The translations under genes were made by a program, and so were the position numbers. Below are positions 5,086-45,970 of a stretch of DNA of 64,000 nt, in pieces; position 1 is the stretch's first letter, and the number at the start of each line of letters is the position of its first letter. The stretch comes from Prochlorococcus sp. AG-388-A04. Its GTDB lineage: Bacteria; Cyanobacteriota; Cyanobacteriia; PCC-6307; Cyanobiaceae. The notes beneath the pieces are model-generated. The model was not told where the DNA came from. It saw nothing but the letters and a program-made list of their open reading frames with translations, and ran no database searches. The stretch is taken from contig QCGL01000003.1 in NCBI GenBank assembly GCA_003279935.1, positions 1 through 64,000 of the forward strand, written 5' to 3'.

Positions 5086-5552
5086 TTGATAACCTCCTTT
5101 GATTTGAGTATTTTCTAATACGTATTACTTATAAAAATCAAGCGTAAGAATACCTAAAATAATTATTAAACGTTATCTGTTAAAACTTTAGAATAAAAAA
5201 ATAAAAAGTTTGTTCATACTAAGTTTTAAATAAATCAGCATATTTGCGCATATACAAAAAAATTTATTCGTACTAACTTTAAATTATTCAAACGGAGGGA
5301 TTAGAAATGATCGATAGTCCACCAGAGAAGTTCATTAGATTGGCTTAAGCAGCCAGTTGTTTACTATTACAAATAACTAAGTTAAGAGGTTGATTACTAA
5401 ATTCAGTAGTCAATCTTTTTTTCTTTTTTAATGGAGGCTAAATAATAAAAACATCATTATATCTTTAAAAAAATGGTACAGATATGAGTACTGCTGTTGC
5501 TAATATTTGGCTTAAATGAAAAATTTCCTAATTTAATCCATAATATTTTTAA
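5086..5552 (+). other. Gene-poor stretch with a possible short transcript
   Basis: The left part should hold the promoter of the minus-strand cluster. On the plus strand a 13-codon frame (MIDSPPEKFIRLA at 5307) follows GGAGGG and is itself followed by a hairpin terminator at 5390. This looks like a short terminated transcript, either a leader peptide or a small RNA. An 11-codon ATG frame at 5484 is too short to judge. Confidence 0.3.
5390..5423 (+). terminator. Rho-independent terminator
   Basis: The arms TTGATTACT and AGTAGTCAA pair with one G-U, separated by a short loop, and are followed directly by TCTTTTTTTCTTTTTT. This ends whatever is transcribed from about 5300. Confidence 0.6.
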
Positions 5553-8212: not shown

Positions 8213-8239
8213 AAAAGACCTTAGTAATAAAGGTCTTTT
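8213..8239. terminator. Bidirectional terminator
   Basis: AAAAGACCTT-agtaata-AAGGTCTTTT has A-tracts on one side and T-tracts on the other, so it can end transcription in both directions. On the plus strand it follows the microprotein at 8124. Confidence 0.7.
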
Positions 8240-8510
8240 AATGTTTTACTTAATCAAGTGTTTCCTTGTTTCCACTGATTCAGTAAAATTTCTCCTACAC
8301 ACATTTGTAATATATACCAATTATTTCTTTTTTGTGGATGAGGATGAGTATTGTTACTTATATAAGCTATTTACAACTCTTATTTCTCAACTAAAACAAA
8401 AACTCACTAATGTTTCGAATCTGATCATTTAGTGATCAGAAATAAGTGTGTGGGAAGTTCATATTTCGCTAATACACTGAAAAATTTAAAGCAGGAGTAT
8501 TTACAACTTT

Positions 8511-9255: not shown

Positions 9256-9427
9256 TTAGTAAGTAATAAGATTTAAAGATATTTAAGCATAAATTATATT
9301 TAACAATGAGTATTGTTAAGCAGCTTCAGTCGCAAAAATAGTTTCTTTTGAAAAGACAAAAAGAGGGAAAAGAAGACAAAAACTTATTAGAAAACTTAAA
9401 TCTAATAAAGACAAAAAGACGGTTAAT

Positions 9428-9754
9428 ATGTCAAAAGCTCTCTATGAAGCAATAAAAGATATTCCACTTATTATGTATGGTTCAGATGATCCATTTTGGG
9501 CTAACAGATATAAAGAGAATGATGATTCTTGGGGTTCACACCACTGCTCTGAATATAAAAATAAATATGGTTTACCATCTTATGATCTAAGAAGATTTGG
9601 AATTGCAGCATTATTAAATGAAGGAGTTTCTCCTTACAGGGTTTGTTGAGATGTAGTCAGACATAAAATTCCAGAGATGTCAGAAGTAACAATGATTTAT
9701 AACAGACCAACAACTGATGATCTTATTGAAGCAATGGAAGAGATTGTAAAGTAG
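9428..9754 (+). pseudogene. Tyrosine recombinase (integrase) C-terminal remnant
   Basis: The ORF-track protein ends at a TGA (9647), but the same frame continues for 34 codons. Read through, it gives YDLRRFGIAALLNEG, then RHK, then MIYNRP, matching in order the box II (HxLR), the H/K and the nucleophilic Tyr of phage-type tyrosine recombinases. The N-terminal core-binding domain and first catalytic Arg are missing; the frame upstream to 9320 is open but has no start codon. It is therefore a decayed integrase, probably what once moved genes into this island. Translational readthrough is possible but less likely. Confidence 0.7.
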
Positions 9755-9878: not shown

Positions 9879-9940
9879 GGGGGACTTTATTTTGAGATTG
9901 TTGGTAAATTATCAAAAGCAACTAAACAATTAATTATTTG

Positions 9941-10480
9941 ATGGAAATTCATAGAAAGACATTACTAAATCTTCTAAAAGAAAGAGCATACAAGAAAGGT
10001 AAATTTACCTTATCTTCTGGTAAAGAATCAGAGCATTACATTAACTGTAAACCTGTTAGTTTATCCTGTGAGGGAAACGCACTTATATCCCATTTGATGA
10101 TAGAACATGTAGAAGATAAATCTGCAGCAGTTGGTGGACTTACACTAGGTGCTGATCCTTTAGTTTGTGGTATCGCACAGAAAGCATATTACTCAAATAA
10201 ACATATTGATGCTTTGATAGTAAGAAAGAATCCGAAAGGATATGGAACAAAAGAAGTTATTGAAGGTAACAAGCCACCTAAAGGATCTATCGTTACAGTA
10301 TTAGAAGATGTAACTACAACAGGTAGTAGTGCCATCAAAGCAGTAAATGTTTTGCGTGATGCAGGTTACATTGTGAATCGTGTTGTTGCAATCGTTGATA
10401 GAATAGAGGATCACATTATATGGGAAAATAACAAGATAGAATTTATTTCTCTATACAAATTAGAGGATATTATTGAATGA
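9941..10480 (+). CDS. pyrE: Orotate phosphoribosyltransferase
   Basis: Transfers ribose-5-phosphate from PRPP to orotate to give OMP in pyrimidine synthesis. It is a 179-residue type I phosphoribosyltransferase: the PRPP loop is VLEDVTTTGSSAIKA, and the N-terminal KGKFTLSSGKESEHYIN is the usual orotate-binding start. The ATG at 9941 is chosen over TTG at 9938. It sits alone among island genes, flanked by two copies of the AACAGTCGA-type repeat and next to an integrase remnant. pyrE is a common auxiliary gene of cyanophages, so transfer is plausible. Whether this is the sole genomic copy cannot be known from the window. Confidence 0.9.
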   Translation: MEIHRKTLLNLLKERAYKKGKFTLSSGKESEHYINCKPVSLSCEGNALISHLMIEHVEDKSAAVGGLTLGADPLVCGIAQKAYYSNKHIDALIVRKNPKGYGTKEVIEGNKPPKGSIVTVLEDVTTTGSSAIKAVNVLRDAGYIVNRVVAIVDRIEDHIIWENNKIEFISLYKLEDIIE

Positions 10481-10630: not shown

Positions 10631-10942
10631 ATGACTACTTATCAGGTTTTTTGGGCTTTCCCTAATCAGGAAGCTAGCGTTAAATGTACTCCAGCTTTCG
10701 TTCAATATTTAACGGAGGGTAAGCAGGGTGACAAGTTTGAAGGGTTTGAAATTAAATATAGAGTCTTAGATCCACAAAACGGAACAGGAAATTTTATTGT
10801 GGAGGCTGAAAGTCCACAAAAGATTTGGGAACATACTGCTCCATGGATTAAAGGATTTGGAGTGAAAGTTGAAATAAGAGTAATGATGACTGATGAAGAA
10901 TTTCTTGAGACCGCTAAAAAATTAGAACTTGATAAAGTTTAG
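10631..10942 (+). CDS. DUF3303 domain protein
   Basis: A 103-residue cytoplasmic protein. The pattern GTGNFIVEAESPQKIWEHTAPWIKGFGVKVEI, with glycine-rich turn, VEA-S and Trp-containing helix, matches DUF3303, a small ferredoxin-like family common in cyanobacteria with no assigned function. A broken second member lies at 12151 after the same repeat element. A terminator follows 30 bases after the stop. Confidence 0.75.
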   Translation: MTTYQVFWAFPNQEASVKCTPAFVQYLTEGKQGDKFEGFEIKYRVLDPQNGTGNFIVEAESPQKIWEHTAPWIKGFGVKVEIRVMMTDEEFLETAKKLELDKV

Positions 10943-10972: not shown

Positions 10973-10996
10973 GAAGGAATTACATCCTTCTTTTTT
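10973..10996 (+). terminator. Rho-independent terminator abutting the next start codon
   Basis: GAAGGA-attaca-TCCTTC-TTTTTT ends transcription after the DUF3303 gene. The T-tract touches the ATG of the DUF3764 gene at 10997, which is unusual. Confidence 0.65.
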
Positions 10997-11302
10997 ATGT
11001 CTTGTTCAGTTACCTCTGTGTTTACTTTTAAAATTGAAAGCACTTTCGATGAATGGGCTGCAATATTTGATAGTGCAGAAGCAGATAAAAGGCATTCAGA
11101 ATTTTATATTAAGCCACTTTTTAGAGGAGTAAGCAAGGAAGACCCAAAAAAAATAATTGTTATTCATCAAGCTCCAGAAGGAAATGTTCAAAAGTTTGTG
11201 GAAGCAAATGGAGACTGGATGGCAACTCATAGAGTTGACTTATCAACAATGGAGGAATCATCTTGGACTGCTTCATTAACAAAGGAAAGTTGTTGTGATT
11301 AA
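10997..11302 (+). CDS. DUF3764 family protein
   Basis: A 101-residue cytoplasmic protein beginning MSCSVTSVFTFKIESTFDEW, with the FDEWAAIFDSAEADKRH and FRGVSKEDPKKIIVIHQAPE blocks that mark DUF3764. The ORF track starts at an upstream TTG, but that would translate through the terminator stem, so the ATG at 10997 is preferred. No Shine-Dalgarno is visible, because the leader is the T-tract. Function is unknown; the fold looks like a dimeric alpha/beta barrel (antibiotic biosynthesis monooxygenase-like). Confidence 0.7.
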   Translation: MSCSVTSVFTFKIESTFDEWAAIFDSAEADKRHSEFYIKPLFRGVSKEDPKKIIVIHQAPEGNVQKFVEANGDWMATHRVDLSTMEESSWTASLTKESCCD

Positions 11303-12846: not shown

Positions 12847-13020
12847 ATGAAATCTCTGCTTACAAGTAAAAGATCTAAAGCAATACTAGGTATTGGAGTA
12901 TTAGCTATTGGTATTGGTGCAATATCTAAAAAGGTTATCAGTTATCCAGCAGGAGGATGTATGAAAGGAGGCACAGAAATGACTTTCAATTTAGACAAAT
13001 ATATTCTCAATAAGCCCTAG
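12847..13020 (+). CDS. 57-residue protein with hydrophobic N-terminal segment
   Basis: The frame MKSLLTSKRSKAILGIGVLAIGIGAISKK... has a basic start and a Gly/Ile-rich membrane helix. The polar tail is glycine-rich (PAGGCMKGGTEMTF). A signal anchor is likely. Confidence 0.45.
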   Translation: MKSLLTSKRSKAILGIGVLAIGIGAISKKVISYPAGGCMKGGTEMTFNLDKYILNKP

Positions 13021-13229
13021 CTAAGGTTAACCCTCGATGAGAGTATATATATGCCCTCACCAAACTATACCTATAAATAGATTACATAGCTGGTATTGCA
13101 GAGAAAGCACTGGTAAGGCACACCCTGGCTATTTGATCTTGGAAAAGCCATAAGACTATTTTAAAAAAGATTCAGATAAAGCTCAAATATTTTAAATTCG
13201 CGCGTCTCGCGATCTGTAGATCTATATAT

Positions 13230-13382
13230 TCAAGCCTTTCTTGTCCCTCCATAACAATATTTCTCTTGATTAGAAATAATGTTCCAACAGTCTTTGCAAG
13301 AAAATATCCAAGTTTTATATTTAATTGATTTAACTCTGTAATGGACTTTGTCTAATTTATTACATACATCACATTGCTTCAT
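13230..13382 (-). CDS. 50-residue zinc-ribbon-like protein
   Basis: MKQCDVCNKLDKVHYRV...IFSCKDCWNII: two CxxC pairs 26 residues apart form a treble-clef or zinc-ribbon module, with a basic C-terminus. Such tiny zinc proteins often bind nucleic acid or act with a partner. It is the gene nearest to the 13-bp tandem repeat, whose first unit begins 15 bases upstream of its start codon, so the repeat lies in its promoter or leader region. Confidence 0.55.
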   Translation of the reverse strand: MKQCDVCNKLDKVHYRVKSIKYKTWIFSCKDCWNIISNQEKYCYGGTRKA

Positions 13383-13396
13383 TTCAGAGTATTAAG

Positions 13397-13474
13397 TTGG
13401 TTAGGCAGGTTGGTTAGGCAGGTTGGTTAGGCAGGTTGGTTAGGCACTTTGGTAAGGCATGCTGATAAGGCACA
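13397..13474. repeat. 13-bp tandem repeat, six units
   Basis: Units TTGGTTAGGCAGG (three exact), TTGGTTAGGCACT, TTGGTAAGGCATG and CTGATAAGGCACA follow head to tail. The period of 13 is not a multiple of three, and no frame uses it. A separate unit, CTGGTAAGGCACA, occurs at 13110. Confidence 0.85.
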
Positions 13475-13539
13475 CCTAATAAAGAAAATAAAATACCTCC
13501 TAAAAACCGTTGCAATAACTAATTTTTAAGAGGTACACC

Positions 13540-13712
13540 GAATCCCCGCCAGTTCTCTGATGCATCGACCTGGAAAAGCCAGAAGAGGAGTCAAAGTGGG
13601 CTTTCGTTTCCAATTACAGGATTGGTTTACGTCCACATCACGACAGTCTCCTCAAGTCGAAAAAGAGTCAGATCAGAGCACATAAAGAAGAACTTGACCA
13701 AAGATCCAGTAA
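13540..13712 (-). ncRNA. ssaA: 6S RNA candidate beside purK
   Basis: This GC-richer non-coding block folds as one long rod. CTCTGAT/ATCAGAG close it, an internal bubble follows, then GAGGAG/CTCCTC, CCAC/GTGG and the terminal hairpin ATTGG/CCAAT. A rod with a large central bubble is the architecture of 6S RNA, which mimics an open promoter and binds RNA polymerase. In cyanobacteria the 6S gene is known to lie next to purK, as here. The minus strand is preferred because a small CTGG-ctttt-CCAG hairpin then falls in the 3' side of the bubble and a TAATAT -10-like box precedes it. Ends and strand are approximate. Confidence 0.6.
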
Positions 13713-13732
13713 ACAAATATTAACTTATTTCT

Positions 13733-38394: not shown

Positions 38395-38486
38395 AACCGC
38401 TACCAAAACGTTCAACTTGCGTTTAGCAAGCCGCAAATCGACTTAAGCCATGGAACGGGGACTTAAGCGACACCGGAGCTTAAAAA
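38395..38486 (+). promoter_or_regulatory. Putative glutamine riboswitch, downstream-peptide type
   Basis: CGTTCA opens the element and GGAACG closes it, the P1 pairing of the glnA/downstream-peptide RNAs. CTTGC-gttta-GCAAG follows directly inside, and two CTTAAG blocks can pair as the expected pseudoknot. A GTAGC-aacc-GCTAC hairpin precedes it. Most telling, it leads a short ORF of the DUF4278 type that is known to follow downstream-peptide RNAs in marine picocyanobacteria. The core differs from the consensus as I remember it, so the call is moderate. It would tie the peptide to nitrogen status. Confidence 0.6.
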
Positions 38487-45840: not shown

Positions 45841-45970
45841 ATTGAGGCCAAACCTCAATGAGTTGAATATATGTTCAACTCCAAGACATAGATTGATTAC
45901 GTATAGTAGTGTATTCAATTTAATAACCCTTCTGGTAGTGGGAATTTCTGGAAGGGTTTCTTGTTTTTAC
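45841..45970 (+). ncRNA. Three-hairpin RNA candidate
   Basis: Three stems follow one another in a non-coding gap: ATTGAGG-ccaaa-CCTCAAT, then directly GAGTTGAA-tatatg-TTCAACTC, then AACCCTTC...GAAGGGTT followed by TTCTTGTTTTT. The last is terminator-like. The set could be a small regulatory RNA or the 3' end of the gloA transcript. Confidence 0.45.

Follow-up and report, generated by a model that had tools for sequence, protein, structure and literature searches.

The 64,000-nucleotide stretch of Prochlorococcus sp. AG-388-A04 analyzed here (the window) raises a simple question: what is a tandem array of 13-bp repeats doing between a 6S RNA gene and a small zinc-ribbon gene, and to which of the two does it belong? 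Six direct repeats occupy about 13395-13473 on the minus strand. TRF reports a 13-bp period at 13396-13459/13473 with 94% matches, and at a lag of 13 the array is identical at 38 of 39 positions, whereas none of 30 Markov shuffles of the 64-kb window exceeds 27. The six-unit tandem array described in an earlier note on this DNA is thus confirmed, as are the lone unit that it placed near 13110 and the position of the array directly before the minus-strand 50-aa CxxC gene, which starts ~13 bp after it. Read on the minus strand, the strand of the 6S RNA and of the zinc-ribbon gene, the six units are TGCCTTATCAGCA, TGCCTTACCAAAG, TGCCTAACCAACC (three times) and TGCCTAACCAACT. The four TGCCTAACCA units closest to the zinc-ribbon gene are almost identical, three of the units in the window being identical, and this near-identity points to recent slippage or homogenization. 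Judging from genome comparison, the 13-bp repeats very likely serve as binding sites and mark one end of a decayed mobile DNA that inserts into the 6S RNA gene; it is highly probable that this DNA is an integrative element with its attachment site in the 3' end of the gene, and that the array forms its left-end arm-type site. The left end comprises the following features:

13531-13715, minus strand: 6S RNA gene, the putative integration target (Rfam RF00013, 94.9 bits, positions 1-187 of 187, full-length).
13536-13572, minus strand: 37-bp core of the 6S 3' end (attB/attL core), duplicated at the far end of intact elements.
13495-13534, minus strand: terminator hairpin after 6S (-15 kcal/mol, z -5.98), of the type of the TGCCTWACCA elements and not of the element-free type.
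13395-13472, minus strand: 13-bp direct-repeat array of six units, read as left-end (attL) arm-type sites, the first unit 63 bp after the core.
13230-13382, minus strand: gene for the 50-aa CxxC protein, a passenger between the array and the lone unit, found without the array in most genomes.
13208-13217, minus strand: ACAGATCGCG motif, conserved at the left ends of three unit types.
13127-13149, minus strand: hairpin GGCTTTTCC..GCC, conserved at the left ends of three unit types (sequences read by eye).
13111-13120, minus strand: lone unit in the orientation of the array, also present in most well-preserved left ends.
13052-13062, plus strand: degenerate inverted unit TGCCCTCACCA, exactly 58 bp from the lone unit.
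12847-13020, plus strand: 57-aa ORF (MKSLLTSKRSKAILGIGVLAIG...), found beside TGCCTTACCA- and TGTCCTACCA-type left ends (79-88% identity, seven related loci), with no Pfam match.

The position of the array relative to 6S is nearly invariant. Among related Prochlorococcus genomes, the first array unit lies 62-64 bp after the same 37-bp core in all 26 of the 26 6S-linked arrays; genomes that lack an array have a different, element-free sequence downstream of 6S. Three types of unit occur at 6S in the genus (TGCCTWACCA, TGTCCTACCA and TGCAGGACCA). In well-preserved left ends, the array is followed by a lone unit of its own type, most commonly 135-138 bp and in some about 200-230 bp past the last array unit, and an inverted unit of the same type lies 58-59 bp beyond the lone unit (11 relatives of three unit types). 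In the window, the zinc-ribbon gene displaces the lone unit from the array; the degenerate inverted unit, which keeps the spacing of the relatives, and the integrase pseudogene described below had escaped the earlier note. This gene is absent after most arrays, including those of the three intact elements described below. Because most arrays have no zinc-ribbon gene and keep a fixed 62-64 bp from the 6S core, the array is assigned to the 6S RNA locus and not to the zinc-ribbon gene. The earlier note had listed 6S RNA as a neighbor; it does adjoin the array, but the link between the two goes beyond mere vicinity and is the key fact of the locus. Its suggestion that the 50-aa zinc protein is the partner of the array is rejected, as gene and array mostly occur apart: a relative of the protein is encoded in 124 of 200 genomes of the genus, whereas arrays are found in only 26 by a three-unit pattern search and in 20 by a two-unit search (the control searches, read backward, return few single matches). 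At loci elsewhere in genomes of the genus the 50-aa CxxC protein is common, and neither Pfam nor PHROGs assigns it to a family; the window's copy has its start codon where relatives without the gene have TTGAAATAAAG.

Relatives carry intact elements. Measured from the full 6S to a second 6S 3' core, these span 7.7 kb (G060), 9.9 kb (G163) and 15.3 kb (G025), and inside either end there is an array of the same unit; the right arrays, two units long, stop about 60 bp short of the second core. Such a core is present in G060, G163, G025, G124, G173 and G242 and in other genera. In G060, G122, G025, G033, G124 and G097, the right array adjoins the start of a complete tyrosine recombinase (422-428 aa); the integrase of G163 is broken. 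The recombinase matches Phage_integrase (Pfam) and integrase (PHROGs) and keeps the catalytic R, H-x-x-R, H and Y in an alignment of eight near-full sequences only, five of them from close relatives. Element-free 6S target sites exist in relatives (G004, G082, G150 and others), and the DNA to the right of attR in G163, G173 and G097 matches such sites. Thus, what characterizes a tyrosine-recombinase element is found among the relatives: a complete recombinase, a duplicated target, element-free sites and arm-type repeats on both sides. Tandem and deleted elements exist as well: in G146, two different array types flank one 6S core, and in G173 about 0.3 kb is left between two cores. The cargo of G163 and G025 includes genes for a phosphonate-binding protein and an ABC transporter. 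Two 6S elements carry almost identical phosphonate ABC transporter genes. Among viral contigs, neither an exact core nor a relative of the integrase was found, and phage records yielded only a 27% match, to phage PaV-LD.

In the lambda Int system, arm-type sites lie on both sides of the core and the integrase consists of a small N-terminal domain and a catalytic domain. The 6S element likewise has arms on both sides of its core and an integrase with an N-terminal and a catalytic domain, so that the layout would be lambda-like, with the repeats as arm-type sites and the 6S core as the crossover region. It differs from lambda phage in its direct 13-bp repeats (2-6 per side) and nutrient cargo, the arm binding here being presumptive. 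The N-terminal domain of the recombinase would probably bind the 13-bp repeats and the catalytic domain would probably act on the core within 6S to recombine it; excision and the precise point of crossover we infer. The element brings its own copy of the 6S 3' end together with a terminator hairpin, and the 6S in the window is still a full-length Rfam match, so that 6S would be left whole after integration. Regulation of the integrase could be a further role of the right arrays, which lie just upstream of it. The first 69 residues of the integrase are predicted to fold as strand-strand-helix-strand-helix (pLDDT 89), a fold that we take to resemble arm-binding domains; a PDB fold search with this predicted domain gave no significant match, and the full-length model is of low confidence (mean pLDDT 50). 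The core region also contains an imperfect palindrome, CCAGGTC-GATGCATCAGA-GAACTGG in our own reading, which could hold two core-binding sites.

The unit changes with the integrase. Integrases of the TGCAGGACCA type are 93-97% identical to one another, whereas the divergent integrase of G097 (62% identity) is accompanied by the arm unit TGCCTTACCA instead of TGCAGGACCA. The right end of G126 has five TGCCTTACCA units, and its integrase start (VSRVFQKTGRYG, read from the DNA) resembles that of G097. Two further integrases are associated with the units GGTCCTACCA and CGTCCCAACCA. Matches to the integrase extend to eight more genera outside Prochlorococcus, nine genera in all. An integrase match together with a located 6S is available for 13 genomes, drawn from related genera and from new genomes. 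In 10 of them, 6S is followed at a distance of 2.4-39 kb by the integrase, which is encoded on the opposite strand; in G276 and G234 it is not just downstream of 6S, and in G262 the two are on different contigs. A copy of the genome's own 6S 3' end, with 1-4 mismatches in 40, lies beside the integrase in G301, G334, G255, G323, G264 and G242. The arrays of G323 are short and weak, and in G431 the right core was not seen in the piece read. Units agree between the two ends of one genome and differ by genus (TTGACTGACA, TGTCAGACCCA, GGTACCCACA, TGGTTCCAAC, GGTCCTACCA and TGCAGGACCA), while the period of 13 and the spacing persist. It is likely that a family of integrative elements specialized for 6S extends across the Prochlorococcus-Synechococcus family, in which the integrase and the 13-bp arms co-evolve, each lineage having its own unit with period and spacing fixed. 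As the element rebuilds the 3' end and the terminator of a global transcription regulator, its integration could tune 6S RNA. A separate idea, based on what we took to be a resemblance of TGGTAAGGCA to a tRNA D-arm, was dropped, since units of other types and genera do not have it.

The element in the window is a remnant of about 4.2 kb that retains a left end, cargo and an integrase pseudogene. To the left of the features given above, it includes:

10994-11302, plus strand: DUF3764 cargo gene, with a 90% identical copy in the 6S element of G163.
10631-10942, plus strand: DUF3303 cargo gene, 99% identical in the G025 element and in the 6S island of G222.
9938-10480, plus strand: pyrE-like phosphoribosyltransferase gene between the array and the integrase remnant, with a 95% identical gene at the same position in G128.
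9317-9751, plus strand: integrase pseudogene, the C-terminal third with two stops (72% identity, E 5.3e-66), oriented as in intact elements.

The catalytic HDLR of the pseudogene reads YDLR. The gene order of G128 (6S, array, pyrE-like gene, integrase remnant, clpS) is that of the window, and on this basis 13475 and about 9300 are the probable limits of the remnant. The window's own genome assembly contains no second 6S core, and the best candidate near the integrase remnant has 20 mismatches in 37, which is the chance level. Neither the right end nor a working integrase is left of the element in the window.

At both ends of the intact elements and from genus to genus, the arrays retain their period, position, orientation and unit identity. 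The earlier note was right in class when it suggested a protein-binding array, its zinc-protein partner apart; in the present reading the integrase would be the protein that binds. Neutral slippage, which it also raised, does not by itself account for these regularities. The number of units, which the note had suggested counting across strains, does range from 2 to 6 among relatives, and three units in the window are identical, as slippage in a spacer could produce; yet the core spacing is near-exact at 26 of 26 loci, the far end has matching arrays, the array's type recurs in the lone and inverted units and the period of 13 survives across genera with different units, leaving this reading barely credible. 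Scarcely more probable is a role in controlling the zinc-ribbon gene, as its operator or as a promoter element. The array ends ~13 bp before the start codon of that gene in the window and in several relatives, but most arrays have no zinc-ribbon gene downstream and most zinc-ribbon genes have no array. The iteron-like site of the earlier note is likewise not supported, because the repeats mark the ends of elements, where they adjoin an integrase and a second copy of the target; no replication initiator was recognized among the listed ORFs of the three intact elements, a minority of which were compared with protein families.

An alternative of a different kind keeps the element and changes the protein: the repeats could be bound by another factor, encoded by the element or the host (an excision factor, a repressor or a replication initiator), with the integrase merely nearby. 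Right arrays lie directly upstream of the integrase start, and a role in regulation or excision could fall to the lone and inverted units inside the left end. This is nevertheless unlikely, as the unit differs from one integrase clade to the next, it is the integrase gene that occupies a constant position next to the array in the intact elements read, and at either end the spacing between array and core is fixed. That the array is an integrase arm site of a 6S element is further supported by the far-end core with its same-unit arrays, the adjoining recombinase, 6S sites free of the element and the window's own remnant; against it stand the missing second core in the window's assembly, some arrays located away from 6S, and the misfit of G276 and G234. 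Compatible with this explanation of the array, although itself somewhat doubtful, is the idea that the pseudogene and the array derive from different elements, the window then holding fragments of at least two 6S insertions. Such a mixed origin may be suspected because the pseudogene resembles the integrase of the TGCAGGACCA type (74%) more than that of the TGCCTTACCA type from G097 (53%); orientation and gene order, in contrast, match those of G128, where the pyrE-like gene and an integrase remnant also lie between 6S and clpS.

Arrays away from 6S occur in a few genomes. In G072:C1 (about 1,284,700), an array stands beside a partial 6S 3' core with 6 mismatches in 37, 613 kb from the true 6S of the same genome. 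Five arrays of the TGCCTTACCA type (G128:C4, G134:C3, G116:C1, G141:C5 and G011:C22) all lie just after the same small protein gene (MGEAKRRK...), and this set looks like one old secondary insertion. An integrase remnant is found 3.5 kb from the array of G128:C4.

Mobile elements of Prochlorococcus have been described at other genes. Tycheposons, as presented in PMC10872708, are elements of 4-200 kb at seven tRNA genes of this genus (Hackl et al., 2023). As far as that account goes, the 6S elements resemble them in genus, in having a tyrosine recombinase and in carrying cargo, including nutrient genes, but are integrated at the 6S RNA gene and not at a tRNA gene. For this reason they are not filed as tycheposons, though they work like such islands. 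A picocyanobacterial tyrosine integrase linked to tRNA-Phe and tRNA-Cys forms a separate subgroup (PMC10187409). It resembles the integrases described here in belonging to variable islands of Prochlorococcus and Synechococcus; compared by description, it is tRNA-associated, whereas no tRNA was found beside the array-linked integrases tested. Typical integration sites include tRNA and tmRNA genes (PMC12884075). Islander/TIGER entry (cited in PMC12884075) is alike in that insertion takes place in the 3' part of a non-coding RNA gene, which is restored; the target here is 6S RNA. In the papers searched, the original tycheposon study (Hackl et al., 2023) not being among them, no account was found in which 6S RNA serves as an integration site or attB.

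Many known integrative elements of non-coding RNA genes use tRNA or tmRNA, and 6S RNA can be added as a recurrent target, in hosts that are some of the ocean's most abundant photosynthetic cells. On the sequence comparisons made here, intact relatives across ocean cyanobacteria very likely move nutrient-uptake and other genes, the phosphonate-uptake genes among them, by docking at 6S. The elements and their remnants have a recognizable DNA signature: the 6S 3' end, about 63 bp, then a period-13 array. Together, the lineages offer a natural set of integrase-repeat pairs for working out how an arm-binding domain reads DNA. Elsewhere in the window, Rfam matches include Yfr11 (5286-5424), Cyano-1 (8237-8304), a Glutamine-II riboswitch (38406-38467) and Yfr13 (45844-45944).
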